Both the position numbers and the translations under genes were made by a program. The notes below the pieces were generated by a model that was not told where the DNA came from, did not search any database, and saw nothing but the letters and a program-made list of their open reading frames with translations. From NCBI RefSeq assembly GCF_031624635.1, contig NZ_JAMQOQ010000004.1, forward strand, positions 354,582 to 418,581: a stretch of DNA of 64,000 nt, given 5' to 3'. The stretch is from Halogeometricum sp. S3BR5-2. GTDB taxonomy: Archaea > Halobacteriota > Halobacteria > Halobacteriales > Haloferacaceae. Below are positions 19,974 through 41,481 of the stretch, piece after piece (position 1 is the first letter of the stretch; each line of letters begins with the position of its first letter).

Positions 19974-21347
19974 ATGACAGAGGATGCCGAACACCCGAAC
20001 CATCCGGGTGTCGACCAGTCGGACCGCGTACTGCCACGAAACCTCCGCCAGAGCGGCGACCCGGGTATCCAGATGCTCGTCTCGACCCGCGTGCGGAAGT
20101 CACCGTTCTTCGACAAGTCGTTCAACGAGGAGGGCGCCTGGCGCTGTACGGTGTACAACCGAACGTACCACCCGCGCGGCCTCGTCGAGCCCGAAGAGGG
20201 CGGTGCGATGGCCGAGTACGAGGCGCTGACCGAGAAGGTCACCCTCTGGGACGTCGCCGTCGAGCGGCAGATTCGCGTGAAGGGACCGGACGCCGAAGCG
20301 CTCACCGACTACGTCATCACGCGTGACGCCACCGAAATTGACACGATGAAGGGCAAGTACGTCATCCTCTGCAACGAGGACGGCGGCGTTCTCAACGACC
20401 CGATCCTGCTCCGCGTCGAGGACGACGAGTTCTGGTTCTCGATTTCGGACTCCACGCTCATGCAGTGGCTGCAGGGCGTCAACGTCGGGAAGGACTTCGA
20501 CGTCGAGATCGACGAGATCGACGTCGCCCCGATGCAGATTCAGGGTCCGCTCTCCGAGGACGTGATGATCGACGTCGTCGGCGAGGAGGTCAGCGAGATC
20601 GCCTACTACGGTCTGATGGACGCCGAGATCAACGGCTGCGACGTGCTGGTGAGTCAGACCGGATTCTCGGGCGAGAAAGGCTTCGAGATCTACGTCAAGG
20701 ACGCGATGGAGAACGCCGAACGCGTCTGGGACCCGGTGCTCGACACCGTCAAAGAGCACGGCGGGATGCAGATCGCCCCGGGTCACCACCGCCGAATCGC
20801 GGCCGGGATCCTCTCGTGGGGCCAAGACATGGACCACGAGACCTCGCCGTTCCAGGTGAATCTGGGGTACCAGGTTCCCGACGACAAGGAAGGCGACTAC
20901 ATCGGCAAGGAGGCGCTGGAGGAGCAGAAAGAACAGATCGAGAGCGGCGAGTACCCGTTCAACCTCAAGATGGTCGGCCTCAAGATGGCCGGCGAACCGA
21001 TCCGCGACTACGCGCCGGACTTCTGGATCGTCTCCGACCCCGACACGGACGAGGAGTGCGGGTACATGACGTCGCCGTGGTGGAACCCCGAACTCGAGAC
21101 GAACATCGGCCTCGGGTTCGTTCCCGCGGAGAAACTCCAGAACGAGACCGGAGCGGAACTCAACGACGAGATCTACGAGGAGGACCTCGACATCGAGTTC
21201 GAGGTGCACCTCCCTGAAGAGTACTCCGAAGAGGGCGACGAACCCGTCTACGCCACGGTCGCCGAGGTTCCGTTCAAGGAGTCCGTCAACCCGAGCGCCC
21301 GCGAACAGGCGAAACTCAGCGCGGCGCAGGAAGCCAGCGACGACTGA
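19974..21347 (+). CDS. DmdA/GcvT-family folate-dependent methyltransferase (demethylase)
   Basis: A 457-residue aminomethyltransferase-family protein. The N-terminal folate-binding half shows RKSPFFDKSF, YNRTYHPRG, VTLWDVAVERQIRVKGPDA and the segment VITRDATEIDTMKGKYVIL. The layout (paired LWDVAVERQ and GGVLNDPILL, then FSISDSTLMQWLQG and PMQIQGPLSEDVM) matches DMSP demethylase DmdA more than classical glycine-cleavage T protein. Such enzymes transfer a methyl or methylene group from an amine or sulfonium to tetrahydrofolate. No glycine-cleavage H or P genes are adjacent. The C terminus has an acidic extension after the GcvT C-terminal barrel. A TTG nine bases upstream is rejected as start. 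Substrate could be DMSP, betaine or a related compound; the family is sure, the substrate is not. Confidence 0.85.
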   Translation: MTEDAEHPNHPGVDQSDRVLPRNLRQSGDPGIQMLVSTRVRKSPFFDKSFNEEGAWRCTVYNRTYHPRGLVEPEEGGAMAEYEALTEKVTLWDVAVERQIRVKGPDAEALTDYVITRDATEIDTMKGKYVILCNEDGGVLNDPILLRVEDDEFWFSISDSTLMQWLQGVNVGKDFDVEIDEIDVAPMQIQGPLSEDVMIDVVGEEVSEIAYYGLMDAEINGCDVLVSQTGFSGEKGFEIYVKDAMENAERVWDPVLDTVKEHGGMQIAPGHHRRIAAGILSWGQDMDHETSPFQVNLGYQVPDDKEGDYIGKEALEEQKEQIESGEYPFNLKMVGLKMAGEPIRDYAPDFWIVSDPDTDEECGYMTSPWWNPELETNIGLGFVPAEKLQNETGAELNDEIYEEDLDIEFEVHLPEEYSEEGDEPVYATVAEVPFKESVNPSAREQAKLSAAQEASDD

Positions 21348-21554
21348 TCGAGCGAGACCGAGGCGACCCGCGCCGCGTTCGACGCGGAACCGACATCGCC
21401 CGGCCGTCCACTTTTCTCTTTTTCGACCGTGAGCCGCGGGACCCGGGTGCGCTCGGTGCGGACTGAGTCGGATGTCGACCAGCGTGAGGTGCCGAGAAAC
21501 AGAACGTCGCGCTCGCCCGGCACGCCTTTGGCGGGCGTGGCCCACTCGACCGAT

Positions 21555-21980
21555 ATGGGGGACGACTTCGCGATCGTTGACCCGACGGACGTATCGAAAA
21601 CGTCGTTTCAGACCTGCGAGACCGAGGTCAAAATGCTCACCGAACCCCTCGGAGCGACCGAACTACGCGTCAACCAGGTGTTCGTCGACCCCGGCGAGGT
21701 GGCCACGCCCCACACCCACGAGGGACAAGAGGAGGTGTTCGTGGCGATGACTGGTGGGGAGATCGAAATCGAAGGGGACCTGCACGCCGTCCCGGCGGGC
21801 GGCGTCGTCCGCGTCGGCGAGGACGTCGTCAGGAACCTCTGTAATCGCACCGGCGAGTCGACGCAGGTCTGGCTCGCACTCGGCGCACCGCCGGTGGGCA
21901 CCGCCGAGGATTTCGGCGCCTACGTCGTCGCCGACGGTGACGACGAGGACGACACCAGTAGCGTAGACGAGACCCGCTGA
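21555..21980 (+). CDS. Small cupin-domain protein
   Basis: A 141-residue single-domain cupin. Motif 1 is PHTHEGQEEVFVAMTG with the two histidines and the glutamate of the metal site. Motif 2, around PAGGVVRVGEDVVRN, lacks the usual third histidine, so metal binding may be altered. It ends in an acidic tail. The ATG at 21555 is preferred to an upstream in-frame codon at 21429, whose extension is arginine-rich and non-haloarchaeal in style. It lies between the DmdA-like gene and glyA. Cupins include DMSP lyases, but with the altered motif that is only a possibility. Confidence 0.75.
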   Translation: MGDDFAIVDPTDVSKTSFQTCETEVKMLTEPLGATELRVNQVFVDPGEVATPHTHEGQEEVFVAMTGGEIEIEGDLHAVPAGGVVRVGEDVVRNLCNRTGESTQVWLALGAPPVGTAEDFGAYVVADGDDEDDTSSVDETR

Positions 21981-22033
21981 GGCGAGCCGACGCCCCGGGG
22001 GACCGTTTCACTTCACGACCGACTCTCCGGCGC

Positions 22034-23278
22034 TCAGTCGTACAGCGGGTGCCGCGCGGCAAGGTCGTTCACGCGGTCGCTCACGTCGGCGACGACGTCC
22101 TCCGTCGGCGACTCGACGATTTCGGCGACGATTTCGGCCACTTCCCGACAGGCGTCCTCGTCGAATCCGCGGGTCGTCAGGGCCGGCGTCCCCGCCCGGA
22201 TCCCCGACGGGTTGAACGCCGACCGCGTCTCGCCGGGAACGGTGTTCGCGTTCAGGACGATCCCCGCCTCCTCTAAGGCGGACTCGACCTCTTTCCCCGT
22301 CGTGTCGGGGTGTGACGGCCGGAGGTCCACGAGCACGAGGTGGTTGTCGGTGCCGCCGGAGACCAGGCTGAGCCCGCGTTCCTGTAGGCGCTCGCCGAAC
22401 GCCTGCGCGTTGTCGACGGTCTGTTTCGCGTACGTCTCGAACCCGGGATCCAGCGCCTCGCCGAATCCGACGGCCTTGCCGGCGACGTTGTGCATCGCCG
22501 GACCCCCCTGGGTACCGGGGAAGACGGCCTTGTCGACGGCGTCGGCGTGCTCCTCGGAAGTCATGATGATGCCGCCGCGACCGGAGCGAATGGTCTTGTG
22601 CGTCGACCCCGTCACGAAGTCGGCGACGCCCACCGGGGACTCGTGCACGCCCGCGGCGACCAATCCGGTGATGTGCGCGATGTCCGCGAGGTGGTACGCC
22701 CCGACGGCGTCGGCGGTCGTCTGGACCCGCTCGAAATCGACTTCGCGGGGGTACGCGGAGTATCCCGAGACGATCACGTCCGGGTCGAACGACTCGGCTA
22801 TCTCCCGAAGTCCCTCGTAGTCGACGTACCCCGTCTCCGGGTCGACCTCGTACTGCTCGACGTCGTACACCTGCCCGGCGAAGTTCGCCGGGTGGCCGTG
22901 ACTCAGGTGGCCGCCGTGCGTGAGGTCGAGCGAGAGAATCTTGTCGCCCGGGTCGAGCATCGCCAGGTAGACGGCCATGTTCGCCTGCGACCCGGAGTGG
23001 GGTTGGACGTTCACGTGCTCGGCGCCCCAGAGCTCCTTCGCGCGGTCGATCGCCAACTGCTCGATTCCGTCGGCGACCTCGCAGCCACCGTAGTAGCGCT
23101 CGCCCGGATAGCCCTCGGCGTAGTTGTTGGTCAACTCGGAGCTCTGGGCCTCCATGACGGCTTCGGAGACGTGGTTCTCGCTGGCGATCATCGCCAGCGT
23201 GCCGTTCTGTCTGGCTCGTTCCTCTTCGAGCAGTTCGGCGGCGGTCGAATCCGTCTCGCGGACGGTGTCGTACGACAT
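22034..23278 (-). CDS. glyA: Serine hydroxymethyltransferase
   Basis: A 414-residue PLP enzyme that interconverts serine and glycine using tetrahydrofolate / 5,10-methylene-THF. The PLP lysine lies in TGSTHKTIRSGRGG, and the N-terminal substrate region YAEGYPGERYYGGCE is fully conserved. Length matches the family. It is convergent with the cupin and upstream of nothing obvious on its strand. In this neighbourhood it can move methylene groups generated by demethylation onto glycine. The start ATG at 23278 gives the canonical N terminus. Confidence 0.95.
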   Translation of the reverse strand: MSYDTVRETDSTAAELLEEERARQNGTLAMIASENHVSEAVMEAQSSELTNNYAEGYPGERYYGGCEVADGIEQLAIDRAKELWGAEHVNVQPHSGSQANMAVYLAMLDPGDKILSLDLTHGGHLSHGHPANFAGQVYDVEQYEVDPETGYVDYEGLREIAESFDPDVIVSGYSAYPREVDFERVQTTADAVGAYHLADIAHITGLVAAGVHESPVGVADFVTGSTHKTIRSGRGGIIMTSEEHADAVDKAVFPGTQGGPAMHNVAGKAVGFGEALDPGFETYAKQTVDNAQAFGERLQERGLSLVSGGTDNHLVLVDLRPSHPDTTGKEVESALEEAGIVLNANTVPGETRSAFNPSGIRAGTPALTTRGFDEDACREVAEIVAEIVESPTEDVVADVSDRVNDLAARHPLYD

Positions 23279-23425
23279 GCGTAGGTCTCCGAACCGCCGC
23301 CTAATAGTCTATCCGCAGACATGACCTGACGGACGGTCGACCGGTCGTGTTTGAAGCGCGCGAACGAGCGGACGACGCGTCCCCGGAGGTAGCTCGTCGA
23401 CCCGCGGTGCGACGGCGCGAGACGG

Positions 23426-24292: not shown

Positions 24293-24439
24293 CGCTTGTG
24301 CCAAGGATTGGTGTGGAATCACTTCCCTTTGCGGGTGACTCACAGCACCCATTTAAGTTGACCGACGACGCCGAGCGACCGGCGGGTTCGGAGCGTTGGT
24401 TGCGCGGACCGCAGCGACGGATCGGGGGCGGCGGTCGGC

Positions 24440-25654
24440 CTACGCGCTCCCGGCGCTCCGGCGGATCTGTTCGGCGACGTCCTCGTGCGATATCTCCTGT
24501 CGTCGCCCCGCCGGGAGCCGTCTGGGGACGAAGTCGAGTAGGTCCAACTGTCGGAGGAGTTCCCGCGCGTCCTCCTGTTCGAGGTCGAGCCGCCGCGCGA
24601 ACCCGTACAGGGTCACCGAGACGGTGACCGCGTCGACCACGTCCGGGATCTGAACGCTGTTCGGCAGCCCGATTCCGTCGGTGACGAGTTTCTCCGCACC
24701 GACCGCGTCGGGGGACGGTTCGGACGAGGAATCTTCCTCCGACTCCCATTCCTCGTCGGGGTCCGTTCCCGACGAGTCGGGAACCGTGCTCTGCGCCGTG
24801 GACGGGTCGGACTCGGGTTTCGGGCCGTCCGGTTCGCCGGTACCGGGTTCCCGGAGTTGGGACTCTCCGCTCTCCGACTCTTCGGTCCGGGGAACCGTAT
24901 CGTAGGTGGTCGGGGAGTGGATATCGGCCTCGATCATGTACCGTCTGACGGTCTCCGAGGTGACGTCCATCTCGATTAGTCGCGTCATCTCGGTGAACGT
25001 TTCGCACCGTTCGTAGAGTCGCTCTAAGTACTCGACGTCCTCGCACGGGAGGACCGACTCGTCCCGAACCGCCGCGAGTTCCTCGGCCGCGGACGGCGAT
25101 GCCGTCGGTCCGTCACCGCCGCGCTCGTCTGCCTCGGTTCGGTCTTCCCCCGTCCCGTCGCCACCGCCGAACGCCTCGACACCGTTCTCGGCCGTTCTCT
25201 CGATGCTATCCGAACTCTCGCCGGCCGCTAGCTGGGTTCCGTCCGCACCTACGTCCGTCTCGGCGTCAGCGTCGTCCGTCGAAACCATCCCCGAGGCGTC
25301 GGTCAGCGGCTCGATGACGACTCCGACGGTGAGTACGAGTTCGCCGTCGTCGGTGCTCGATGCTCCCCGGACATCGGCGTCGACGGACGCTCCGTGGTGT
25401 TCTACGACGTCTGCGAGGTTCGACGCGGAGAACGAAACCTCGACGCCGCCTTCGTCGTCGACCGACGCCGACTCGGCGACGAGCGTCGGCCTCTGTCCGC
25501 CCGCTGAACCAAGGACTGCGGCCGAAACGGTGATTGTCGCCCGAACCGCTCGGTCGTCGTCCGTCGTCGTCTCGACCGCTCGTACCGACCCCCCTTCTGA
25601 CTCGTACCGCTCGACGATTCGAGAGAGAAGGTCGAAGCAGGTTCCGAGTGACAT
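24440..25654 (-). CDS. Haloarchaeal HTH-type protein, putative regulator
   Basis: A 404-residue protein of unrecognised family. The first 110 residues form a beta-rich domain, then a long acidic, serine-rich low-complexity region follows. A helix-turn-helix-like segment FTEMTRLIEMDVTSETVRRY appears around residue 235, then a second disordered linker, and a C-terminal helical domain (FARRLDLEQEDARELLRQL) that also looks DNA-binding. Starts at 25669 and 25654 are both possible. Placement between metF and folCP on the same strand makes a role in controlling one-carbon genes plausible, but nothing in the sequence proves it. Confidence 0.6.
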   Translation of the reverse strand: MSLGTCFDLLSRIVERYESEGGSVRAVETTTDDDRAVRATITVSAAVLGSAGGQRPTLVAESASVDDEGGVEVSFSASNLADVVEHHGASVDADVRGASSTDDGELVLTVGVVIEPLTDASGMVSTDDADAETDVGADGTQLAAGESSDSIERTAENGVEAFGGGDGTGEDRTEADERGGDGPTASPSAAEELAAVRDESVLPCEDVEYLERLYERCETFTEMTRLIEMDVTSETVRRYMIEADIHSPTTYDTVPRTEESESGESQLREPGTGEPDGPKPESDPSTAQSTVPDSSGTDPDEEWESEEDSSSEPSPDAVGAEKLVTDGIGLPNSVQIPDVVDAVTVSVTLYGFARRLDLEQEDARELLRQLDLLDFVPRRLPAGRRQEISHEDVAEQIRRSAGSA

Positions 25655-26416
25655 GCGTTGATAGAACATAGCATACTATCAAGCATAATCGTACGTGGGG
25701 AACAGCCCACCCTTTTACTATCCCTCCGTGGAAGAAAACCTATCAATCATCGAGAGAGCCGAATCACCCCTCCTCGCGAAACCGACGGCCCCTGAACGCT
25801 ATCGCACGCTGATTCGCACAGCTATCCGGCATCGGTTCCATCGAAATCAACAACAGGGTGAGAAGCTTAGAACTCACCCGAGTTCACGGTCTCGGCCCTT
25901 CTACTCACTCGCAAAATAAATTCGCTATCTCTAGGACGAATCCGGGCACTCCCGGATACATCCGTTCGAAGCGTACTTGCGACCGAATTGAGACGCCTCC
26001 GATCGGGACATAGAACGCCGGAACGCCGACAACGACGTTGGCTCACCGGAGTGCAGGAACGGTGGTAATAAATATCAGTTCTTCACGCTCACATTCGCGG
26101 AAAACGGGCTTAGACACGGGAAGACAAACGATAGGACCCGTTCTCGAGCGCTCGAAATCCGAGAGGACGCAGGTCGAAGCTCACCGCCCCGAAACCGAAC
26201 CTCGACCGGATGGAGATGCGGTGAATACCCGCGGAGTTCGCTCCGTCTCGACCCTTTCGACGCCTTCTACTCCGCAGACTGCGAACTGCGCGGGGAGCAC
26301 ACCAGCGGCTGACGGGTGGTACTCCGCCGCGCAGTTGCGAAGCGCACCGCTTCTCGGTGCGCTCTGCGGTTCTGTGATCCGAATGAGTTTTCGAGAATTC
26401 TTCTACCGGAAGAAGA
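25655..26416. other. Intergenic region with strong hairpins near its right end
   Basis: Roughly 760 bases without a convincing gene. The left half is AT-richer; the right half (26220-26363) holds several compact inverted repeats, annotated separately. On the minus strand it is the 3' flank of folCP. Confidence 0.45.
26220..26363. ncRNA. Candidate structured RNA element downstream of folCP
   Basis: A cluster of stems in a non-coding stretch: the GGTGAATACC core at 26220-26229; CGGAG-TTCG-CTCCG at 26232-26245 (UUCG tetraloop); a ten-base perfect pair AACTGCGCGG (26284-26293) with CCGCGCAGTT (26327-26336); and a nine-base perfect hairpin AGCGCACCG-CTTCT-CGGTGCGCT at 26341-26363. Such density is more than expected for plain spacer. 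It could be a small RNA on either strand, a 3' processing signal of folCP, or a remnant of a mobile element end. Confidence 0.35.
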
Positions 26417-29047: not shown

Positions 29048-29191
29048 ATGCCCGACACAGAGACACGGAGGTCCGCGTCACCGGACTACGACCCGTTACC
29101 CGGTGAGCAGACGGACTCTACCTCCGACAGATCGACTCGTCGAAAGGGACCGGAACAGACGGTAGCGGCCGGAGGAGAGGACCCGCTATGA
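29048..29191 (+). CDS. 47-residue hydrophilic protein overlapping purU
   Basis: A short frame from ATG at 29048 to TGA at 29189-29191. It ends inside an ATGA overlap with the purU start, which suggests translational coupling. The product is charged and disorder-like (starts MPDTETRRSASPDYDPLPGE). A TATA-like TCTATATATC at about 28943-28952 lies further upstream. No family is recognised. It could equally be a non-functional leader ORF. Confidence 0.4.
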   Translation: MPDTETRRSASPDYDPLPGEQTDSTSDRSTRRKGPEQTVAAGGEDPL

Positions 29192-30743: not shown

Positions 30744-33296
30744 ATGAATGCCACGGACCTTCCTGATCAGTCGACGACTGTCGTCATCGGCGCGGGCGCG
30801 GTCGGGTGCAGCGTCGCATACCACTTGACGGAACTCGGCGCCGACGACGTCACCGTCGTCGACCAAGGCCCGCTTCCCGTCACCGGCGGGTCGTCGGTCC
30901 ACGCGCCGGGGATCATGTTTCAGACGTCGCCGTCGAAGGTACAGACGAAGGCCGCCTACTACACCAGTCGCTTCCTCTCGGACATCGGCACGTACGACGA
31001 GGTCGGCGGCATCGAGACCGCCCGAAGCGAGGAGCGTATGGACTTCCTCCGACGTCGCTTCGAGTGGGCGACCTCCTACGGGCTTCCCGACCCCGAACTC
31101 CTCTCGCCCGAAGAGGTCGGCGAGCGACTCCCGTTGGTGGACGAGGAGGAGATTCTCGGCGGCTACTACTCCCCGACCGACGGCCGCGTCGACGGCATCG
31201 AGACGCTCCAGTGGTACATCGAAAATACGCCCGCGAACTTCGTCGGCGACACCGAAGTGGTGGACCTCGAGGTGTCGAACGGCGAGATAACATCGGTCGT
31301 CACCGACAAGGGGCGCATCGACTGCGACCGCTGCGTCATCGCGACGAACAACTGGGGCTACCAGACCGGCCAACTCGCCGGGCTCGACCTCCCCATCGCG
31401 CCGGTCGAACACCAGTACGTCGTCACCGAACCGATGGAAGAGTTGGCCGACGCCGACTCGGCCGTCGGCGACAACACGGCCGGACTCGACGTCCCGGGCA
31501 ACCGCGCCATCCAGGAGTACATGAGCGAGGGACCCAACCGACCGGTGGGCCGCGACCAGGACCACTCGCTGTACTTCCGAACCCACGGCGACGCGCTCGG
31601 CATGGGGTCGTACAACCACGAGGCGCTGTCGGTCGACCCCGAGGAGATGGGTCGCAACAGCGAGGACCAGCAGTCGTCGGTCCGCGGATTCACCAAGAAG
31701 CACTGGGAGCGCCCGACCCACCCCGACCGCGACAAATCCGCCAAGCAGGCGTTCGACGAACTCCTGCCGGCAAGCGCCGACCAGGAGTACGCCGTCACCG
31801 AGAACGGCATCTTCGTGTTCACGCCGGACGGGATGCCCGCCGTCGGCCCGACGGCGCAGGTCGACGGCCTCTGGACCGCGCTGGCCATCTGGTGGACCCA
31901 CTCCGCCGGCTACGGCCGCATCGTCGCCGAGTGGATGGAGAACGGCGTTCCGCGGCTCCCCTCGGGACCGGTCGACTCCGGCGGCATCCACGTCCGGCGC
32001 TTCGAACCCCACGCCGGCGAGAAGGACTTCTTCGTCGACCGCGGCGCCAAGCGCTACGAGCAGGTGTACAGCATCGTCGAACCGCGCTGGCAACCCGACG
32101 ACCACCGCGGACTGCGCACGAGTCCGTTCTACGAGCAGCAGCGAGACCTCGGTGCGGAGTTCGTCCAGAGCGGCGGCTGGGAGTCGGCGCAGTACTACGA
32201 GTCCAACGCCGACCTCGTCGACCGGTACGAGGACCAGATTCCGGAGCAGGACGGCTGGCAGGGCATCAACCGCTCACCCGTCCAGGGAGCCGAACACCTC
32301 CACACGCGCGAGCACGTGTCGATGTTCGACATGACCACCTTCAGCTCGATTATGGTCTCGGGCGAGGGCAGCGGCGAGTTCCTCCAGCGGGTGTGCAGCA
32401 ACGACATGGACATCGAGGAGGGGAAGGTGCGCTACTCGCTCCTCTTGAACGAGGGCGGCGGCATCCTCGCAGACGTCACCGTCGTCCGCCTCGGCGACGA
32501 GGAGTACATGGTGACGACCGGCGGCGGCAACTCCCCGCGCATCCACGGCTCGTGGCTCGAAGAGCACGCCCCCGAGACGGTTTCCGTCCACGTCGAGGAG
32601 GGCGCGAAATCCACCATCGGCCTCTGGGGTCCGAAGTCCCGCCTCCTGCTCCAGCGCTGTACCGACGCGGACGTCTCGAACGACGGCTTCCCGTACTTCA
32701 GCGCGAAGCAGATGTACGTGGGCGAGGTGCCCGTCATCGCGTTGCGCGTCTCGTACGTCGGCGAACTCGGGTGGGAACTGTGGACGCCCAGCGAGTACGG
32801 CCGGCGCCTCTGGGAGACGCTGTGGGAGGCCGGGCAGGACCTCGACGTGCGGCCGATGGGCGGCGGCGCCCTCGAATCGATGCGCCTCGAGAAGGGGTTC
32901 CGCCTCTGGGGGACCGACATCGACACCGACTCGAACCCGTTCGAGGCCGGTCTCCCGTTCGCCGTCGACATGGAGACCGACTTCATCGGTAAGGACGCGC
33001 TCGAAGCCGCGAAGGAGGAGGGAATCGACTCGCGCATCACTCCCCTCACGCTCGACGACTCGACCGACATCGCCCTGAGCGGACGGCCGGTGCTGAAAGA
33101 CGGCGAGGCGATCGGATACGTCCAAGCCGGCGACTACGGGTACACCATCGGAGAGTCAATCGCGTACACGTACGTTCCGAGCGAACACGCCGAAGCCGGG
33201 ACGGACGTGCAGATTCGGTGCGAGGGCGAACTGTACGACGCGACCGTGCGCGAGGAACCGCTGTTCGACCCCGGCCGGGAGAAGATCATCCGGTAA
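30744..33296 (+). CDS. Dimethylglycine/sarcosine dehydrogenase-like flavoprotein with GcvT domain
   Basis: An 850-residue protein. An N-terminal FAD-dependent oxidoreductase domain (GAGAVGCSVAYHL at about residues 17-29) carries GSSVHAPG, whose histidine aligns in position with the covalent-FAD histidine of dimethylglycine dehydrogenases. A central domain follows to about residue 450, then a GcvT folate-binding module (about 480-745, with SNDMDIEEGKVRYSLLLNEG) and its C-terminal barrel. This class oxidises N-methyl groups of dimethylglycine or sarcosine and transfers the formaldehyde equivalent to THF. It has its own promoter and is followed by a dehydratase and a BCCT transporter. Which N-methyl amine it takes is not resolved. 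Confidence 0.88.
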   Translation: MNATDLPDQSTTVVIGAGAVGCSVAYHLTELGADDVTVVDQGPLPVTGGSSVHAPGIMFQTSPSKVQTKAAYYTSRFLSDIGTYDEVGGIETARSEERMDFLRRRFEWATSYGLPDPELLSPEEVGERLPLVDEEEILGGYYSPTDGRVDGIETLQWYIENTPANFVGDTEVVDLEVSNGEITSVVTDKGRIDCDRCVIATNNWGYQTGQLAGLDLPIAPVEHQYVVTEPMEELADADSAVGDNTAGLDVPGNRAIQEYMSEGPNRPVGRDQDHSLYFRTHGDALGMGSYNHEALSVDPEEMGRNSEDQQSSVRGFTKKHWERPTHPDRDKSAKQAFDELLPASADQEYAVTENGIFVFTPDGMPAVGPTAQVDGLWTALAIWWTHSAGYGRIVAEWMENGVPRLPSGPVDSGGIHVRRFEPHAGEKDFFVDRGAKRYEQVYSIVEPRWQPDDHRGLRTSPFYEQQRDLGAEFVQSGGWESAQYYESNADLVDRYEDQIPEQDGWQGINRSPVQGAEHLHTREHVSMFDMTTFSSIMVSGEGSGEFLQRVCSNDMDIEEGKVRYSLLLNEGGGILADVTVVRLGDEEYMVTTGGGNSPRIHGSWLEEHAPETVSVHVEEGAKSTIGLWGPKSRLLLQRCTDADVSNDGFPYFSAKQMYVGEVPVIALRVSYVGELGWELWTPSEYGRRLWETLWEAGQDLDVRPMGGGALESMRLEKGFRLWGTDIDTDSNPFEAGLPFAVDMETDFIGKDALEAAKEEGIDSRITPLTLDDSTDIALSGRPVLKDGEAIGYVQAGDYGYTIGESIAYTYVPSEHAEAGTDVQIRCEGELYDATVREEPLFDPGREKIIR

Positions 33297-33389: not shown

Positions 33390-34652
33390 ATGACCGACGA
33401 CGACGCGGACGGACTCCCCGTCCGGTACGCAGAGATCGAAGGGGCACGCGAACGCCTCGACGACGACAGTGTCGTAAAGCAGACGCCCGTCGAGCGGAGC
33501 ACCTCGCTCGGCGAGTTCGTCGACGCGGAGGTCTACTTGAAGATGGAACACCTCCAGTGGACGGGCTCGTTCAAGACCAGGGGCGCGTACAACAAGATCA
33601 GCCAAGACGTCGAACGCGGCGTCGACGAGTTCATCGCCGCGAGCGCCGGCAATCACGCGCAGGGTGTCGCGCTGGCGGCGACGAAGTGCGGGGCCGACTC
33701 GACGATATACATGCCGGAGAACGCCCCGCAGACGAAGGTCGACGCGACGCGCGACTACGGCGCCACGGTCGAACTGGTCGGCAAGGACTTCCAAGAGACC
33801 ATGTCGCGGGCGCAGTCGGCCGTCGAAGGGACGGACGCGGAGTTCGTCCACGCCTACGACGACACGGACATCATCGCCGGGCAGGGAACGCTGGGCGTCG
33901 AGATGTACCACGACTGCCCCGACGTCGACACGGTGGTCGTCCCCATCGGCGGCGGCGGGCTCATCTCCGGTATTTCGACGGCGATCAAACACCTCTCCCC
34001 GGAGACGCGCGTCGTCGGCGTGCAGGCGACCGGGGCGGAGACGGTCCACGAGAGTCTCGACAAGGGAATGCCGGTGACGCTCGACGAAGTCGACACCATC
34101 GCCGACGGAATCGCGACCGGCGGCATCTCGCGGACGACGCTCGACATCATCCAACAGAACGTCGACGAGGTGGTCACCGTCTCGGACACCGAAATCGCCC
34201 GCGCCATCCTCGTGCTCCTCGAACGGGCCAAACAGGTCGTCGAGGGGGCGGGCGCCGCGTCGGTCGCGGCGATTCTGAGCGACGAACTGGACGTGAGCGG
34301 CGAGACGGTGATGCCGCTGCTCTGCGGCGGGAATCTCGACATGACGCAGTTGCAGACGGTGTTGGTCCACGCGCTCACCGAACGACGACAGCTCCTCCAG
34401 CTTAGGGTGCACATCGACGACCAACCGGGGAAGATGCAGGAGATATCCGGCTGTATCGCCGCCCACGGAGCGAACATCCGCAACGTCCGCCACGACCGGT
34501 CCATCGAGGACCTCGAAGTCGGCGAGGCGTATCTCGTGTTCGACGTCGAGACCAGCGGCGTGGAGCACGCGGCGTCGATCGTCGACTCCCTCGAAGAGGC
34601 CGGCTATCCCGTCGCCGACGTGACGAAAGCCCGGCAGGACGCGTCTCGATGA
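33390..34652 (+). CDS. Threonine/serine ammonia-lyase with C-terminal ACT domain
   Basis: A 420-residue PLP enzyme. The PLP lysine is in WTGSFKTRGAYNKI near residue 60, the phosphate-binding loop is IGGGGLISG, and SAGNHAQGVALAA is conserved. A C-terminal ACT domain (from about 330, LRVHIDDQPGKMQEIS) suggests amino acid feedback. It deaminates threonine to 2-oxobutyrate or serine to pyruvate. Location 90 bases after the demethylase-type flavoprotein and near glyA favours serine removal to pyruvate, but isoleucine synthesis (ilvA role) is an equal option from sequence alone. Confidence 0.9.
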   Translation: MTDDDADGLPVRYAEIEGARERLDDDSVVKQTPVERSTSLGEFVDAEVYLKMEHLQWTGSFKTRGAYNKISQDVERGVDEFIAASAGNHAQGVALAATKCGADSTIYMPENAPQTKVDATRDYGATVELVGKDFQETMSRAQSAVEGTDAEFVHAYDDTDIIAGQGTLGVEMYHDCPDVDTVVVPIGGGGLISGISTAIKHLSPETRVVGVQATGAETVHESLDKGMPVTLDEVDTIADGIATGGISRTTLDIIQQNVDEVVTVSDTEIARAILVLLERAKQVVEGAGAASVAAILSDELDVSGETVMPLLCGGNLDMTQLQTVLVHALTERRQLLQLRVHIDDQPGKMQEISGCIAAHGANIRNVRHDRSIEDLEVGEAYLVFDVETSGVEHAASIVDSLEEAGYPVADVTKARQDASR

Positions 34653-34908: not shown

Positions 34909-34992
34909 CCGCGACGACTCCGAGGACGATGAACGCACGATTGACCGAGCGACCGCACCGTACTCGACCGGCGCGTCACCGGGTGGAACCAC

Positions 34993-36786
34993 ATGCCGGA
35001 CGATGAGCGGACGACGGGGGAAACGTCCGAGGGACTGCAAGTAGAACTGTTCCACCCGGACTCCGACCGAGCACCCGGCGACACCAATATCGAGAAGTTC
35101 GGATTCGACGTTCACCCGGTCGTCTTCCCGATTTCGTTGGTGATCATCGTCGCGTTCGTCGCGGCGACCATCCTCCTCGGAGACCGGGCGTCCGAGGTTT
35201 ACGGCGCAGTGTTCGCGTTCATCAACACGAACTTCGGGTGGTTCTACATCATCGCGGTGAACCTGTTCATCGCCACCATCCTCTACTTCGCCTTCAGCAA
35301 GTACGGTACCATCCGCATCGGCGGCGTAAAGGCGGAGAAGGAGTTCAGCGACTTCTCGTGGACGGCGATGCTGTTCAGCGCCGGGATGGGAATCGGGTTG
35401 ATGTTCTACAGCGTCGCCGAACCGATGTGGCACTTCGGCAACGGAGCCTCCGGATCCATGGTCGTCCCGCCCGCGTTTACGGCGGACGGCGGGACGTCCG
35501 CGGCCGCCACCGTCGCGATGGCTCAGACGTTCTTTCACTGGGGGTTTCACCCCTGGGCCGTCTACGGCCTCGTCGGTCTCGGACTCGCCTTCTTCTCGTT
35601 CAATCGCGGTCTGCCACTGACGTTCCGATCCATCTTCTGGCCGCTACTCGGAGAGCGCATCTACGGGTGGCCGGGTCACGTCATCGACTTGGTGACCGTA
35701 TTCGCCACGCTGTTCGGTCTCTCCACCTCGCTCGGACTGGGGGTCACGCAGGTCAACACGGGGCTCTCGTACGTCGGGGGCGACATCCTCGGCCTCGTGA
35801 GCGTCCCGACGGGAGATATCCCGCAGGTGGTTCTCATCGTCTCCATCACGGCGGTCGCAGCGCTCTCCGTCGCGGCCGGACTGGAGGGCGGGGTCAAACG
35901 ACTGAGCACGCTGAACCTCTACTTGATGTTCGCCATGCTCGCGTTCCTGTTCGTCGTCGGACCGACGCTGTACGTCCTCGGAGTACTTTCGGGAGGGGTC
36001 GGTGCCTTCCTCGACAATCTGTTTCAGTTGAGCTTCTTCACCGGCATCGTCGGCGGGGGTGCACAACTCGGCGCGTACTCCGTCCAAGGGTGGATGGGGA
36101 ACTGGACCGTCTTCTACTGGGGCTGGTGGATCGCGTGGTCGCCGTTCGTCGGGATGTTCATCGCGCGCATCTCGAAGGGAAGGACGGTTAGGGAGTTCGT
36201 TCTGGGCGTGCTGTTTCTCCCCGCACTGTTCTCGTTCGTCTGGCTGGCCACCTTCGGCGGCTCCGCGCTGTGGATCGAACTCGTCGGGAGCGGAGGCGTT
36301 GCGACCGCCGTCGCCGAGCAGGGACAGGCCACCGCGATGTTCGCCATGCTGAACCAGTTTCCGCTGGGGGCGCTCTCAGGACTCCTCGCGACGCTGCTCG
36401 TTATCACCTTTTTCGTCACGTCCTCCGACTCGGGGTCGCTGGTCATCGATCACCTGACCTCCGGCGGGAAGCACGACGTACCGAAAGTTCAGCGCATCTT
36501 CTGGGCCGTCACCGAGGGCGCCGTCGCGGCCAGCCTACTCGTCGGAGGGGGACTGAACGCACTGCAGACCGCCGTCATCACGACGGGGCTCCCGTTCGCG
36601 GTCATCCTCGTGCTGATGTGTTACACGGTGTACCTCGGGCTCGACAACGAGTACGAGATCCTCCGATCCGAACAGTTCGCCGACCGAATCGACCACCTGA
36701 CCGCAGAGCAGGACGTGGACGTCGTGACCAACGACAGCGAACTCGTCACCGAGGTCAGGAGTTCCGACGCGGAAGGTGGTGACTGA
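34993..36786 (+). CDS. BCCT-family osmolyte (betaine/choline/DMSP-type) transporter
   Basis: A 597-residue secondary transporter with twelve predicted membrane helices. Family signatures are WTAMLFSAGMGIGLMFYSVA, FHWGFHPWAVYGLVG, STSLGLGVTQVNTGLSYVGG and WWIAWSPFVGMFIARISKGR. A hydrophilic acidic N terminus of about 40 residues and C-terminal tail may sense osmotic conditions. BCCT carriers import glycine betaine, choline, carnitine or DMSP with Na+. GGTGGA lies five bases before the ATG and may act as ribosome binding site. Placed next to demethylation genes, it probably serves catabolic uptake as well as osmoprotection (inference). Confidence 0.93.
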   Translation: MPDDERTTGETSEGLQVELFHPDSDRAPGDTNIEKFGFDVHPVVFPISLVIIVAFVAATILLGDRASEVYGAVFAFINTNFGWFYIIAVNLFIATILYFAFSKYGTIRIGGVKAEKEFSDFSWTAMLFSAGMGIGLMFYSVAEPMWHFGNGASGSMVVPPAFTADGGTSAAATVAMAQTFFHWGFHPWAVYGLVGLGLAFFSFNRGLPLTFRSIFWPLLGERIYGWPGHVIDLVTVFATLFGLSTSLGLGVTQVNTGLSYVGGDILGLVSVPTGDIPQVVLIVSITAVAALSVAAGLEGGVKRLSTLNLYLMFAMLAFLFVVGPTLYVLGVLSGGVGAFLDNLFQLSFFTGIVGGGAQLGAYSVQGWMGNWTVFYWGWWIAWSPFVGMFIARISKGRTVREFVLGVLFLPALFSFVWLATFGGSALWIELVGSGGVATAVAEQGQATAMFAMLNQFPLGALSGLLATLLVITFFVTSSDSGSLVIDHLTSGGKHDVPKVQRIFWAVTEGAVAASLLVGGGLNALQTAVITTGLPFAVILVLMCYTVYLGLDNEYEILRSEQFADRIDHLTAEQDVDVVTNDSELVTEVRSSDAEGGD

Positions 36787-36848
36787 CGCCGTCGCGGTTC
36801 GATTCTCTTCCTCGCGGTCTCCCTCGTTCGGGATGTGTCGAGCGTCGT

Positions 36849-37583
36849 TCAGAACACGTCGGGAGTCCAGTCACTGTCTCGGACCGACTCGCGGAATCGC
36901 TCGCGGTCACCCGACGACAGTTCACCGACCGATTCGTGCGTCGTCGTCGCCGTCGCCGTCTCGACGCCCCGCATCGCCTCGCACATGTGCGTCGCAGTGA
37001 CCTCGACGACGACCCCCTCGGCTTCGAGTTCGTCGGCCAGACCGGTTGCGATGCCGCTCGTCAGCGCTTCTTGCGTGGTAAGTCGCCGCGACCGCCACCG
37101 CACGTAACGCACGAGCTTCGAGAGTCCGACCATCGACGCCTCGGGTTTGTACGCGACGTGTGCGACCCCGTAGAAAGGGAGTAGGTGGTGCTCGCACATG
37201 CTGTACAGCGGGATGCCCGTCTTGATGACGAGTCCGTCGGTCTCCGCCTCGAAGGTTCGCATGGTCGGCTTCGCCGCCTCGCGTCGGCCCTCGGTGAGCG
37301 TCTCGAACATCGCCGGCACGCGGCGCGTCCACGTGTCGGAGACGCCGCGCGCGTCGGGGTCGCGGCCGACCGCCTCGAGCAGCAGTCGAGCGCCCTCGCG
37401 GGCCTTCTCGTGGTCGAAACCTTCCGCTTCGGTCGACCCGGTCGACCCGGCCACCTCGGCCGTCCCGGTGGCCTCGGTTGTCGGCGTCGCCTCCTCGGAC
37501 TCGGTCACGCCGGTCGGGACGGTCGGTGACGTGCCGTCCCCGGCGTCGTAGCTGCGGTCACGCTGCTGGTCGTGCGGGTCCAT
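36849..37583 (-). CDS. folE: GTP cyclohydrolase I (type IA)
   Basis: A 244-residue protein. Its last 190 residues are a canonical FolE with the zinc and catalytic motif SMCEHHLLPFYG and THMCEAMRGVE, and the subunit-contact region SKLVRYVRWRSRRLTTQE. It makes dihydroneopterin triphosphate from GTP, the first pterin step of folate synthesis. The first 55 residues are a low-complexity T/E/A/V/G-rich tail not seen in the fold, so a later start cannot be excluded. It is the last gene of a pabB-pabA-ridA-folE minus-strand series. Confidence 0.92.
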   Translation of the reverse strand: MDPHDQQRDRSYDAGDGTSPTVPTGVTESEEATPTTEATGTAEVAGSTGSTEAEGFDHEKAREGARLLLEAVGRDPDARGVSDTWTRRVPAMFETLTEGRREAAKPTMRTFEAETDGLVIKTGIPLYSMCEHHLLPFYGVAHVAYKPEASMVGLSKLVRYVRWRSRRLTTQEALTSGIATGLADELEAEGVVVEVTATHMCEAMRGVETATATTTHESVGELSSGDRERFRESVRDSDWTPDVF

Positions 37584-37639
37584 CGCTCTGTCTTAGGCGG
37601 TCTGCGTGCAAAAAAGTGCGGTCCCCGAGGACGGCCGCC

Positions 37640-38020
37640 CTACTCGGTCGTCGCGATGGCCTCGATTTCGACCGCCGCACCTTTCGGGACGGCACCGGCC
37701 CCGACGGCGCTGCGCGCCGGCGGGTCCTCGTCGAAGTACTCGCCGTAGGACTCGTTGAACGCGTCGAAGTCGTCGATGTCGTCGAGGTACACCGTCGTCT
37801 TGAGGACGTCGTCCAGCGACAGTCCCTCCGATTCGAGGATGGCCGCGACGTTGTCGAGACACTGCTCGGTCTGCCGGCCGACGGACTCGTCGTCGAGCAG
37901 TTCTCCGTCCGTCGTCAGTGGAAGCTGACCCGCGGTGATGAGCACGTCGCCGTTCATCGTCGCCTGACTGTACGCCCCGACCGCCGCCGGTGCGTCGTCG
38001 GTGCTGATGGTCCGTTTCAC
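37640..38020 (-). CDS. RidA/YjgF/UK114-family enamine/imine deaminase
   Basis: A 126-residue trimer-forming protein. The family motif PARSAVGAGAVPKGAAVEIEAIA contains the catalytic arginine, and GAYSQA near the N terminus is conserved. RidA proteins hydrolyse reactive 2-aminoacrylate-type intermediates released by PLP enzymes such as serine/threonine dehydratase, which is encoded 3 kb away. It lies between pabA and folE where an aminodeoxychorismate lyase might be expected. Its position could reflect protection against imines in this cluster (inference). Confidence 0.9.
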   Translation of the reverse strand: MKRTISTDDAPAAVGAYSQATMNGDVLITAGQLPLTTDGELLDDESVGRQTEQCLDNVAAILESEGLSLDDVLKTTVYLDDIDDFDAFNESYGEYFDEDPPARSAVGAGAVPKGAAVEIEAIATTE

Positions 38021-38158
38021 GTGAGAGCGTACCGACCGGAGCCACCTTAAATCCCGGCCGCTCGGTTCACAGTCGCCACATCGTGACAGCCGCCGTACCA
38101 GTCGTGGATTCCCCCGAGGGAAGCGAACGAGAGCGACGGTGAGTCGAGACGACCCGTC

Positions 38159-38731
38159 TCAGGCGCCCGCAATCGACGAGCAGAAATTCTCGACGATGCG
38201 CTTGCCCGCGTCCGTGAGGATGCTTTCGGGGTGGAACTGAACGCCGAGATGCGGCCGGTCGACGTGGCGCACGCCCATCACGACGCCCCGTTCGTCGTTC
38301 GTGTACGCCGTCTCGACGAGAGCGCCGGGCAACTCGCCGCTCTCGACCGCCAGCGAGTGGTAACGCCCCACCTCGAACGGGTCGTCGACGCCGTCGTACA
38401 GCGCCGACCCGTCGTGGCGGACCTCGGAGGGTTTGCCGTGAACGACCTCGGGGGCGTGGACGACCGACCCGCCGTTTGCAGCGCACAGTGCCTGGTGACC
38501 GAGACAGACCCCCAGCGTGGGATAGTCGAGGTCGCGGAACACGGGGACGGAGACGCCGGCGTCGGCGGGGGTTCCGGGCCCGGGCGAGACGACGACTCCG
38601 TCGGGGTCGAGGTCCGAGATTCCGGCGACGTCGATTGCGTCGTTGCGCCTGACGACGACGTCGTCGAACTCGCCGACGTACTGGACGAGGTTGTACGCGA
38701 ACGAGTCGTAGTTGTCGACGATGAGTATCAT
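38159..38731 (-). CDS. pabA: Aminodeoxychorismate/anthranilate synthase glutaminase subunit
   Basis: A 190-residue class-I glutamine amidotransferase. The nucleophile is in GVCLGHQALCAANGG, the His-Glu pair in QFHPESILT, and the N terminus ILIVDNYDSFAYNLVQYVG is typical of PabA/TrpG. It supplies ammonia to the chorismate-converting subunit encoded one base upstream on the same strand. PabA and TrpG are interchangeable by sequence; the folate neighbourhood favours pABA synthesis. Confidence 0.9.
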   Translation of the reverse strand: MILIVDNYDSFAYNLVQYVGEFDDVVVRRNDAIDVAGISDLDPDGVVVSPGPGTPADAGVSVPVFRDLDYPTLGVCLGHQALCAANGGSVVHAPEVVHGKPSEVRHDGSALYDGVDDPFEVGRYHSLAVESGELPGALVETAYTNDERGVVMGVRHVDRPHLGVQFHPESILTDAGKRIVENFCSSIAGA

Positions 38732-38732
38732 C

Positions 38733-40244
38733 TCACCGGGCCCCCTCGAGCGTGTCGGCGGACTCGACGGCGAACGACCCCCGCTCGCCGAGCGCCTCGT
38801 CGACGGCGTTGACGAGCGCCCGGGCCTTATCCAGCGTCTCCTCGTACTCCGAGACCGGGTCGGAGTCGTGGACGATACCGGCGCCGACGCGCAGGCGATA
38901 CTCGCCGCCGCGGCGGACGAGCGTCCGGATCGTGATGTTCAGCGTCGCTCGGTCGTCGAAGCCGAACACGCCGATGCTCCCGGTGTAGGGGCCCCGGCGG
39001 CTCGCCTCCACTTCGTCGATAATCTCCATGGTCCGGGGTTTGGGCGCACCGGTAATCGTCCCACCCGGGAATACGGCCGCGACGGCGTCGGCGATGCTCA
39101 CGCCCTCGCGGCGACGGCTCTCCACGAGCGAGACGAGGTGCATCACTTCCGAGTAGCGGTCGACCCGGCGGTACTCGGTGACGTCGACGCTACCGTACTC
39201 GCTGACCTTCCCGAGGTCGTTGCGCTCGAGGTCGACCAGCATCGCGTGCTCGGCCCGCTCCTTGTCGTCGCTCGTAAGGTCGCGCTCCAGTTCGGCGTCG
39301 GCTTCGACCGTCCCGCCCCGCGGTCGCGTGCCCGCGATGGGTTCCGTCGACAGACGGTTGCCCTCGACATCTAGCAGTAGTTCGGGACTGGCGCTGACGA
39401 GGTCGATACCGGGGAACTCGAGCAGGCCCGAGTACGGCGCCGGATTCACACGCCGCACGGCGTCGTACGTCTCGACCGGGTGGACGGCCGCGGGGGCGAC
39501 CAGCCGGTGCGACACGTTCGTCTGAAACGTGTCGCCGTCACGAACGTGCTCCTTCACCCGACGCACCCGCTCGGCGAACGCCGCCTCGCCGCACCCGCTC
39601 TCGAACGTCGCCCGTCGGGTCGCGACCGGCGGGGAGTCGACGGCCGGCTCCCCGCGGAGCGCGGATTCGGCCAGTTCGTTGGCCATCTCCACGCCGGCCT
39701 CGTAGGCCGCCGCGGGCGACTCGTGCTCGTCGACCACGGGACAGGCGGTCACCCGCAGTCGTACGTCGCCCTCGGTCGGCGCCTCCCAGGCGGCGACGCG
39801 GTCGAACACGCCGAGTTGGAGTCGCGGGAGCCCGTCCGGGGCCGTCGTCGCCGGCAGGTCCTCTAGCTCCCGGGCGACGTCGTAGGAGAGCCAGCCGAAC
39901 GCGCCGCAGGGGTACGGAACCTCGCAGTCCCCGCGGACGAGGTCCTCGCGGTCGAGCAGCGAGTCGATGGCGTCGACTGTCGGACTCTCCCCGTCCGGCG
40001 AGGCCGCGTCGGCGGCCACCTGCAGGCGCTCGACCGGGTCGACCGCGAAGTATCCCCAACCGGACTGTCCCCCGGTCGTCTCGAGGAACACCCCGTCAGC
40101 GTCGCCGTCGCGGGCCCGACGATAGGCCTCGAAGGGGTCCGAGACGGTGACCCTCACCTCCACGGGGACCCGGGCCCCGACCGGGGCCGAGGCCGCGGTC
40201 CCGACGAACGATGCGCGCTCCGTGACGACTGACGGCTGGTTCAT
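38733..40244 (-). CDS. pabB: Aminodeoxychorismate synthase component I (PabB/TrpE family)
   Basis: A 503-residue chorismate-binding enzyme. The core shows [40 protein letters not shown] and [18 protein letters not shown]. In many PabB proteins the alanine of PIAGT is a lysine; alanine is the TrpE-like residue but also occurs in a PabB subset, so the assignment rests on the adjacent pabA, ridA and folE. It makes 4-amino-4-deoxychorismate from chorismate and glutamine-derived ammonia. No PabC lyase gene is found next to it. The ATG at 40244 is the first start. Confidence 0.85.
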
Positions 40245-40434
40245 GTGAATCGGACAGCCCTGAGGGGGGACCGGCGGTCAGTTTCCATCGTTACTCGAAC
40301 CGAGATGTCCGTTCACAAAAAAACCTTCTTCCGCGCCGGCGTCCCCTGCTGGAGTTCCGCGGTCCGGCCGGTTCACCGTCCCCGAAGAAGTTCCACGGGG
40401 GGTGGCTTCAATGGGTGGAAGATGACTCACGATG

Positions 40435-40587
40435 GCTTATTAGGATAGATGAGGAGACGGGAATAGAGAGCCCGTCCAGCGCGACGTTCGCCGGCACGTC
40501 GGCCCGCCGCCACAGGAGTGTGGCACGCGGCGCAGCGCATCCGGACCGGGGCCGGTCCGAACGTCGGCGACGGCGCCATCATCCACC
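40435..40587 (+). promoter_or_regulatory. folD promoter and structured leader
   Basis: CTTATTAGG at about 40437-40445 is a possible TATA box, giving a leader of roughly 120 bases. Within it CGACGTTCG (40482-40490) pairs perfectly with CGAACGTCG (40558-40566), enclosing two local hairpins: CCACA-GGAG-TGTGG (40510-40523) and the 18-base palindrome CGGACCGGGGCCGGTCCG (40542-40559). The last two bases of the palindrome overlap the long pair. Together they resemble a three-way junction just before the start codon. It could be a ligand-responsive RNA or an operator. Confidence 0.4.
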
Positions 40588-41481
40588 ATGACCACCATCA
40601 TCGACGGAAAGGAGATTGCGGACCGAATACGGGCAGACGTATCGGACTGTGCGGCGCACCTCGCCGACGAAGGCGTGACCCCTGGACTCGCGACGGTCCT
40701 GATGAGCGACGACGGAGCCAGCGAGACCTACGTGTCGATGAAACAGCGGGCCTGCGAGGAGACCGGAATCGAGGGAATCCATCGGGTGCTCGACCCCGAG
40801 GCCTCGGCCGAGACCCTCCTCCGACAGATAGACGATTTCAACGACGACCCGAGGGTACACGGCATCCTCGTTCAGATGCCGGTACCGGACCACGTCGACT
40901 CTCAGGCCGTACTGGAACGCGTCGACCCGATGAAAGACGTAGACGGATTTCACCCCGAGAACGTCGGACGGCTCGTAACCGGGAACACTCGGTACAAGCC
41001 CTGTACTCCCCACGGAATCCAGAAGCTCCTCGAAGCCGCCGACATCGAAACCGAAGGGAAAGACGCGGTCGTCGTCGGCCGGTCCGACATCGTGGGGAAG
41101 CCGATGGCGAACCTCCTCGTCCAGAAAGCGCCGCGGGGCAACGCCACCACGACGGTCTGTCACTCCCGCACCGACGACCTCGCAGAGAAGACCCGAACGG
41201 CCGACATCGTGATCGCCGCGGCGGGCGTCCCCGAGATGATCACCGGCGACATGCTTTCGGAGGGCTGTACGGTAATCGACGTCGGCGTCAACAGAGTCGA
41301 CGCCGAGACGGAGAAGGGGTACGAACTGGTCGGTGACGTAGCGTTCGAGAGCGCGAGCGAGAAAGCGGACGTCATCACTCCCGTCCCCGGCGGTGTCGGT
41401 CCCATGACCATCGCGATGCTGATGTACAACACCGTCAAGGCGGCGAGCCTGCAGTCGGGCGTCGACGTCGAACTCCCCTGA
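40588..41481 (+). CDS. folD: Methylene-THF dehydrogenase / methenyl-THF cyclohydrolase
   Basis: A 297-residue bifunctional FolD. Catalytic tyrosine and lysine are in TYVSMKQRACEETGI; the folate site has VQMPVPDHVD; the NADP site is VVGRSDIVGKPMANLL with PCTPHGI before it; and TPVPGGVGPMTIAML ends the fold. It oxidises 5,10-methylene-THF to 10-formyl-THF. With MetF and PurU it completes a methyl-THF to formate route. It is divergent from pabB with a 343-base gap that holds its leader. Confidence 0.95.
   Translation: MTTIIDGKEIADRIRADVSDCAAHLADEGVTPGLATVLMSDDGASETYVSMKQRACEETGIEGIHRVLDPEASAETLLRQIDDFNDDPRVHGILVQMPVPDHVDSQAVLERVDPMKDVDGFHPENVGRLVTGNTRYKPCTPHGIQKLLEAADIETEGKDAVVVGRSDIVGKPMANLLVQKAPRGNATTTVCHSRTDDLAEKTRTADIVIAAAGVPEMITGDMLSEGCTVIDVGVNRVDAETEKGYELVGDVAFESASEKADVITPVPGGVGPMTIAMLMYNTVKAASLQSGVDVELP

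Follow-up and report, generated by a model that had tools for sequence, protein, structure and literature searches.

The aryl O-demethylation module of Sphingobium SYK-6 consists of LigM, MetF and LigH. For glycine betaine, the first steps treated in the accessible part of PMC12478193 are GbcAB, Bhmt and the cobalamin-dependent MtgBAC/MtgBCD, and a direct route to tetrahydrofolate (THF) does not appear among them there. Haloarchaeal dimethylglycine oxidase genes lying beside genes for BCCT transporters were reported by Anderson et al. 2011 (PMC3102087), where, in the portion available, use of betaine, dimethylglycine and/or sarcosine was proposed. Here we describe a gene cluster of 21.5 kb in which such genes are accompanied by D1, a DmdA-like GcvT-family protein, by MetF and by folate biosynthesis genes. 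It lies in a stretch of 64,000 nucleotides (the window) that forms the end of contig C4 (418,581 bases) in the 4.66 Mb assembly of Halogeometricum sp. S3BR5-2. A literature search, resting on sources accessible in part, found no enzyme for the first betaine demethylation in haloarchaea and no paper describing D1 or the cluster.

Directly observed were which genes are present, the families they belong to, the order in which they stand and how they co-occur across genomes; from this we infer the enzyme activities and substrates discussed below. The cluster probably encodes a pathway from glycine betaine to pyruvate, with folate as the likely acceptor of the methyl groups, and is joined by folate biosynthesis genes. 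We also lean towards D1 being a new first step of betaine catabolism, passing a quaternary-ammonium methyl group straight to THF and dispensing with cobalamin, homocysteine and oxygen; it would have a dedicated catabolic MetF, be widespread in haloarchaea (partly on plasmids) and recruit folate-synthesis genes.

In the proposed pathway, the BCCT transporter would import glycine betaine and D1 would transfer the first methyl group from the quaternary nitrogen to THF, yielding dimethylglycine and methyl-THF, the latter being oxidised by MetF to methylene-THF. Removal of the second methyl group, and perhaps of the third, would then fall to the FAD-GcvT fusion (FUS1 in the window), with methylene-THF as the product; the third may alternatively be taken, in the window's genome, by a sarcosine-oxidase homologue encoded on contig C3. 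GlyA would convert glycine and methylene-THF to serine, from which IlvA and RidA would form pyruvate and ammonia. Surplus one-carbon units may be sent to formate by FolD and PurU, and the extra FolC-FolP and FolE might raise folate supply.

A conserved core and its folate genes

Class-1 D1 and MetF occurred in identical sets of 47 genomes and were both absent from the other 72. One set of 119 genomes of the family served for all co-occurrence counts, with distances measured between the low ends of matches and MetF scored with one query protein; a MetF match of 18.9 bits in G066 was dropped before counting, and the D1 of G054 was joined from two contig-end pieces (84-89% identity). A D1-like protein of either class was present in 48 genomes, the sole one lacking MetF being G027, which holds only D2, a second clade of D1-like proteins (60-70% identity to D1) found in 23 genomes. 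D1 was distributed over 14 genera, five of which (g4, g5, g10, g22 and g27) were mixed for the D1/MetF pair; MetF tracked D1 in each, and the match is therefore not one inherited block. Methyl-THF needs MetF, whereas fusion enzymes yield methylene-THF, for which no MetF is needed. The identity of the two sets would be expected if D1 makes methyl-THF and the fusions methylene-THF.

The fusions (DAO-GcvT) were sorted into three classes from a match list reaching down to about 132 bits. Partial rows were dropped where the same genome had a fuller one and second copies inside a class were not counted, so that one fusion class does not always mean one copy (as in G015 and G117, each with FUS3 in two rows, and in G060, with a third fusion). 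Sixty genomes carried a fusion of any class, all 47 D1 carriers among them. Within 30 kb of each other were D1 and MetF in 41 of these 47 genomes, D1 and a fusion in 39, and MetF and a fusion in 44. FUS1 combines DAO, FAO_M, GCV_T and GCV_T_C domains in a single chain and is a predicted dimethylglycine oxidase/dehydrogenase; its best match in the PDB was dimethylglycine oxidase 1pj5 (585.9 bits, query residues 12-845).

Gene order was compared in forty 20-kb loci around a fusion gene, each taken from a different genome of the family other than the window's own. MetF was present in 32 of them, the BCCT transporter in 30, IlvA in 28, D1 and the protein adjoining MetF in 24 each, and GlyA in 15. 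The recurring order, with rearrangements, was D1, MetF, the protein without family, a second fusion, FUS1, IlvA and BCCT, often with GlyA. The co-location of the cluster genes exceeds chance. A second set was made up of named genome-contig loci, of which 275 were found and the best 80 retained; several stop short at contig ends, 70 contained class-1 D1 (at least 74% identity) and ten the paralogue D2 (66-69%). In 56 of the 70 class-1 loci, and in none of the ten D2 loci, MetF was no more than about 10 kb away.

Plasmids carry the system repeatedly. Over about 20 kb, pHH400 of Haloarcula hispanica displays DHFR, D1, MetF, two fusions, IlvA, BCCT, folP and the start of a formate-THF ligase gene. 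The set is also found on pNG700 of H. marismortui, with a ring-hydroxylating oxygenase sitting between its two fusions. Plasmid-borne D1 or fusion genes were also recorded in Halobellus limi, Salinigranum marinum, Haladaptatus salinisoli, Halorientalis marina, Haloterrigena turkmenica and others. Haloarchaeal plasmids bearing the system measured 310-560 kb. The second fusion gene was not found in the window's genome or in its close relatives G063 and G075; in these three, PurU and FolC-FolP adjoin FUS1.

The protein adjoining MetF, conserved yet fast-evolving, stands beside MetF and the fusions and was encountered in 27 of 61 grouped stretches, the window counted. As in the window, D1 is preceded by a BAT-type gene in some relatives, and a regulator of this type was seen in four of eight fetched D2 loci (D2 at about 8 kb).

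Folate genes followed the core less regularly. In the 40 fetched loci FolC-FolP was present ten times, PabA five, PurU and PabB four each, FolD three and FolE twice; at least one of these six occurred in 14 loci and none in 26. Near D1 in the best 80 of the 275 named loci were FolD-like genes (28, at 45-78% identity), formate-THF ligase (16), PabA and PabB (11 each), FolC-FolP (8) and DHFR (4). This varying subset, together with the scarcity of FolE (type I above cut-off in 11 of the 119 genomes, within 10 kb of a fusion in three and at about 14 kb in a fourth), would suit a view in which the folate biosynthesis genes are present by chance and the remainder is a dimethylglycine/sarcosine (or betaine) island. 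We regard this as unlikely in the light of FolC-FolP. Strong FolP-domain matches (at least 246 bits) numbered one in 101 genomes, none in two, and two or more in 16; a second FolC-FolP was restricted to fusion genomes (16 of 60 vs none of 59 fusion-free ones). For 15 of these 16 genomes the distance between a copy and a fusion was 1.3-18.2 kb, the other genome, G054, being fragmented, and among the other 44 fusion genomes the sole copy was within 20 kb of a fusion in 16. Our results thus support the folate genes as recurrent passengers of varying subset, and with this the view that folate supply travels with the pathway.

In the window's genome, the FolC-FolP of the cluster is 50% identical to the other copy, on C1, and the type I FolE of the cluster is accompanied by FolE2/MptA on C2. 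PabA and PabB of the cluster were the only pair found in the genome, whose two remaining chorismate-binding proteins were assigned to TrpE and isochorismate synthase. A search of the window with a haloarchaeal DHFR as query yielded no DHFR.

These comparisons bear on the original prediction, made from the window alone, of a self-contained unit that imports a methylated osmolyte, demethylates it to THF and supplies its own THF. Import and demethylation to THF are supported as a unit conserved in haloarchaea: core genes stayed together among relatives, in the 40 loci and in the named genomes alike, which answers the doubt that they might lie apart there. Its own THF supply is supported in part: the second FolC-FolP and the extra type I FolE speak for it, whereas PabA and PabB as the only pair, the missing DHFR, the 26 loci devoid of the six folate genes and the differing subsets speak against it. 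Self-containment did not hold, as the sarcosine-oxidase homologue is on another contig and neither DHFR nor a second fusion was found in the window.

D1 and its predicted substrate

D1 exceeds the cut-off of the GcvT domain and remained below those of the T-protein models NF001567 (164.6 bits, cut-off 300) and TIGR00528 (144.3, cut-off 235.85). Its best NCBIfam match was the DMSP (dimethylsulfoniopropionate) demethylase model NF009133 (PRK12486), at 240.3 bits under a cut-off of 410, and its best match in both sequence and fold was DMSP demethylase 3tfh (TM-score 0.83 by target length), followed by T-proteins. The AlphaFold2 model (pLDDT 70.1, pTM 0.69) supports a GcvT/DmdA fold. In a tree of 48 rows, D1 and D2 formed one clade (100/100) while DmdA and bacterial relatives formed another (94/85), long branches being flagged. 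Judged by this separate clade and by a score under the DmdA cut-off, D1 is not DmdA.

Residue D145 of D1, at the acidic position of the T-protein GGxxDD motif, was invariant in 42 haloarchaeal rows and aligns with the Asp of T-protein and DmdA. W171 is given in the accessible part of PMC7487153 as the DMSP-contact Trp of DmdA, and its numbering was mapped onto 3tfh by our own reading. The equivalent position was Phe (F234) in 42 of 42 haloarchaeal rows, Tyr in three annotated Roseobacter DmdAs, and Trp in 3tfh and four relatives from DMSP operons. The change from Trp to Phe was considered as proof against DMSP, an argument weakened by the Tyr of the Roseobacter DmdAs.

Slot replacement among genomes offers a further view of the substrate. 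Thirteen genomes have a fusion without D1, and a Rieske oxygenase lay within 8.3 kb of the fusion (2.8-8.2 kb) in all 13; PF00848 (Rieske) matched in five of the 59 fusion-free genomes. The Rieske representative had GbcA as best NCBIfam model (134.6 bits, cut-off 670) and carnitine monooxygenase as best PDB match, with a lesser match to 4qup, 'Monoxygenase; demethylase'. Sarcosine-oxidase homologues of monomeric type were recorded in 18 of 24 genomes with one fusion class, three of 36 with several classes and none of 59 without fusion, at a limit of at least 70% identity which was chosen after the list had been inspected and in this respect counts against the pattern. They often adjoin the fusion. 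The six one-class genomes devoid of a close homologue were five with FUS3 only (G015 having two copies) and G041. PF02574 (BHMT) had no match in any of the 119 genomes, and neither it nor PF06253 (MttB/MtgB) or PF00848 matched in the window's genome. Genomes thus appear to fill three slots, the quaternary methyl first and then two more, and because of these three methyl-removal slots glycine betaine fits better than DMSP. It is likely present in haloarchaeal brines.

In some relatives, MttB-family genes and formate-THF ligase were seen near fusions, certain loci also holding FolD, formate dehydrogenase and ETF; these loci are likely a second, corrinoid-type demethylation module. In-frame stops, one or two in many second-fusion genes and also present in some MttB genes, raised the idea of pyrrolysine or recoding, which was rejected as a search artefact: in the 11 and 2 genes inspected, the stop fell within the last six match residues.

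Affinity to DmdA invites the alternative that D1 demethylates DMSP or another sulfonium osmolyte to THF and MetF oxidises the product, the betaine genes being neighbours in an osmolyte island. Both the PRK12486 and 3tfh matches point this way, as do four of the bacterial D1 relatives of the tree, which sit in DMSP-type operons. Yet the score under the cut-off and the separate clade speak against it, and no dmdBCD-like CoA ligase, acyl-CoA dehydrogenase or hydratase was found among the clusters typed near D1 or fusion (part of all clusters), the window's own acyl-CoA-type genes lying at least about 14 kb upstream of D1. Dimethylglycine-type fusions accompany D1 in all 47 genomes that hold it, and where a fusion genome lacks D1 it has a quaternary-amine-type Rieske oxygenase instead. 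Likewise, the transporter matched DddT (207 bits) less well than BetP (331). We hold a sulfonium substrate to be quite unlikely.

A different quaternary amine (proline betaine, carnitine, choline or gamma-butyrobetaine) or trimethylamine (TMA) as substrate of D1, with the fusions processing the products, seems quite improbable too. It draws on the carnitine monooxygenase and, more weakly, 4qup likeness of the Rieske counterpart, on D2, which suggests more than one role in the D1 family, and on the transporter, whose top PDB match was a TMA transporter (477 bits), ahead of a choline transporter (345), BetP, DddT and CaiT (164). By these scores the transporter is closer to BetP, choline and TMA transporters than to DddT or CaiT. 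The closest solved relatives of the fusions are, against this, dimethylglycine oxidases, and GlyA and IlvA fit glycine as the end product.

That D1 and MetF are biosynthetic, MetF making methyl-THF (its usual direction is the reduction of methylene-THF) and D1 methylating an amine or thiol acceptor as a thinkable substitute for the methyl-transfer step missing with PF02574, is very improbable, since a pair absent from 72 of 119 genomes meets no general need and comes with fusions, an adjoining ammonia-lyase and BCCT.

Several observations weigh against glycine betaine demethylation by D1, or against the pattern on which it is based. D1 is present in metagenome-assembled genomes of Haloquadratum walsbyi, a species for which PMC3102087 reports, in the part available, no growth enhancement by betaine; according to the same portion H. 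utahensis could not grow on betaine, H. walsbyi being one of that paper's four organisms and H. utahensis not. The literature search, in sources accessible in part, gave no supporting biochemical or growth data. Alternative first steps coexist with D1: a Rieske gene was near the fusion in six of 47 D1 genomes (all of genus g25) and in four of the 80 named D1 loci retained as best of 275, pNG700 of H. marismortui carries the D1 set plus a Rieske-type gene, PF00848 matched anywhere in 18 of the 47, and PF06253, whose MttB family is another possible first step, in nine genomes, all D1 carriers. Weaker sarcosine-oxidase homologues were encountered in 28 further genomes. In G015 and G039 the class-1 D1 reached only 74-75% identity vs 69-70% for the paralogue and was far from MetF; five D1 genomes hold only FUS3, the more distant fusion class, and a sixth, G041, a single fusion, FUS1, on a small contig. 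Fisher tests of co-occurrence ignore relatedness among genomes. The D1 model is middling, with residues 275-298 below a pLDDT of 50, and too uncertain for a substrate reading. Finally, the closest plasmid-borne bacterial relatives of D1 (34.6-36.3% identity) have genes for acyl-CoA synthetase and enoyl-CoA hydratase as neighbours, including in one case an annotated dmdD, and this setting suggests that their own substrates are of DMSP type.

Taken with these points, glycine betaine remains the most likely substrate, a sharpening of the methylated osmolyte first proposed, with the two GcvT-family proteins predicted to act in succession, on the quaternary amine and then on dimethylglycine/sarcosine. 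The cluster is genuine, its core is conserved and its genes make functional sense together; its most likely role is folate-dependent glycine betaine catabolism with a predicted new first enzyme.

A plasmid of Lichenihabitans psoromatis displays a D1 relative (33.5% identity) with MetF, PurU, FolD and ABC transporters, and is a bacterial one-carbon unit of parallel design. Some D1 or D2 carriers are labelled A-GB7, A-GB9-2, A-GB1 and H-GB1-1; the literature search found no confirmation that GB stands for a glycine betaine enrichment.

Gene content of the window

Table 1. Features of the cluster and its borders (window positions; scores in bits, with model cut-offs after 'vs' or in brackets).
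Feature	Position	Strand	Match or remark
BAT/HTH_10 regulator, upstream of D1	18817-19482	+	PF04967 49.6 vs 23.1
D1, DmdA-like GcvT-family protein	19974 (ATG)-21347	+	PF01571 144.7 vs 25.6
Cupin-like gene	21429-21980		close match in 2 of the 40 fetched loci; not used in the reading
GlyA, serine hydroxymethyltransferase	22034-23278	-	PF00464 490.5; NF000586 572.8 vs 335
MetF	23426-~24292 (open reading frame reaches 24352)	-	PF02219 52.9 vs 24; best PDB match 7xg9 MTHFR, 115.4
Conserved protein adjoining MetF	24440-25669	-	no Pfam or NCBIfam match
FolC-FolP fusion, second copy of the genome	26417-28861	-	TIGR01499 and TIGR01496 above cut-off
PurU-like formyl-THF deformylase	29188-30162	+	NF004684 238.4 vs 223; TIGR00655 236.6 (below 285.95)
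tRNA-Thr (CGT)	30405-30495		inside the cluster, between PurU and FUS1
FUS1, DAO-FAO_M-GcvT fusion, dimethylglycine oxidase/dehydrogenase type	30744-33296	+	domain matches; PDB 1pj5
IlvA-type threonine/serine ammonia-lyase	33390-34652	+	TIGR01127 443.7 vs 378.75
BCCT transporter, predicted betaine uptake	34993-36786	+	PF02028; TIGR00842 468.7 vs 407.55; betaine model NF047988 517.8 (below 650)
FolE, type I GTP cyclohydrolase	36849-37583	-	NF006826 168.1 vs 162
RidA-family enamine/imine deaminase	37640-38020	-	PF01042 126.6 vs 27.3
PabA	38159-38731	-	PF00117 163.1 vs 22.8
PabB	38733-40244	-	best NCBIfam model PabB-clade2, 396.2 (slightly below 408.55)
FolD	40588-41481	+	NF010764 543.1 vs 477

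Every gene named in the original prediction was confirmed in the window by profile matches (Table 1); its list was correct as far as it went and omitted the IlvA-type ammonia-lyase and RidA. RidA clears the enamine formed by serine/threonine dehydratases, and it belongs with the cluster because this role fits IlvA. An open reading frame of 150 residues at 37593-38045 was dismissed as a shadow frame of the Pfam-matched RidA gene. Just past the cluster (43012-45268), sugar-kinase-like (SBD_N/NBD_C) and PdxA genes stand in series, a row suggestive of threonate/erythronate use.

Relation to known systems

If the proposed role is true, D1 brings in a quaternary-amine demethylation with folate as the direct methyl acceptor, and GcvT-type chemistry reaches beyond sulfonium to ammonium substrates; its gene would then serve to mark betaine turnover in hypersaline environments. 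The swaps seen among genomes, between D1 with MetF and Rieske and between a second fusion and sarcosine oxidase, open the claim to direct testing.

DmdA of Pelagibacter and Roseobacter shares the GcvT fold with D1; DmdA is known to hand a methyl group directly to THF, and D1 would do the same. D1 differs by its own clade, by a score under the DmdA model and by an identity of 29-30% to three annotated DmdAs, which display Tyr (3tfh: Trp) where D1 has Phe. The partners also differ, dimethylglycine-type fusions in the case of D1 and dmdBCD in that of DmdA.

The LigM-MetF-LigH module resembles the D1 cluster in that a GcvT-family demethylase is paired with MetF and formate is reached by way of folate, and LigM entries appeared among the fold matches of D1. 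The two are distinguished by substrate class and domain of life, and the D1 cluster further includes the fusion, GlyA, IlvA and BCCT.

With GbcAB, BHMT and MtgBAC/MtgBCD, as far as the available part of their description goes, the proposed D1 reaction would share the overall task, the conversion of betaine to dimethylglycine. In contrast to them, D1 would hand the methyl group directly to THF with no need for cobalamin, homocysteine or oxygen. The genes described by Anderson et al. 2011 (PMC3102087) include, in the portion accessible, the same kind of fusion and transporter as the window; what the present locus and its relatives add to that portion is D1, MetF, the replacement of slots by Rieske oxygenase or sarcosine oxidase, and the accompanying folate genes.

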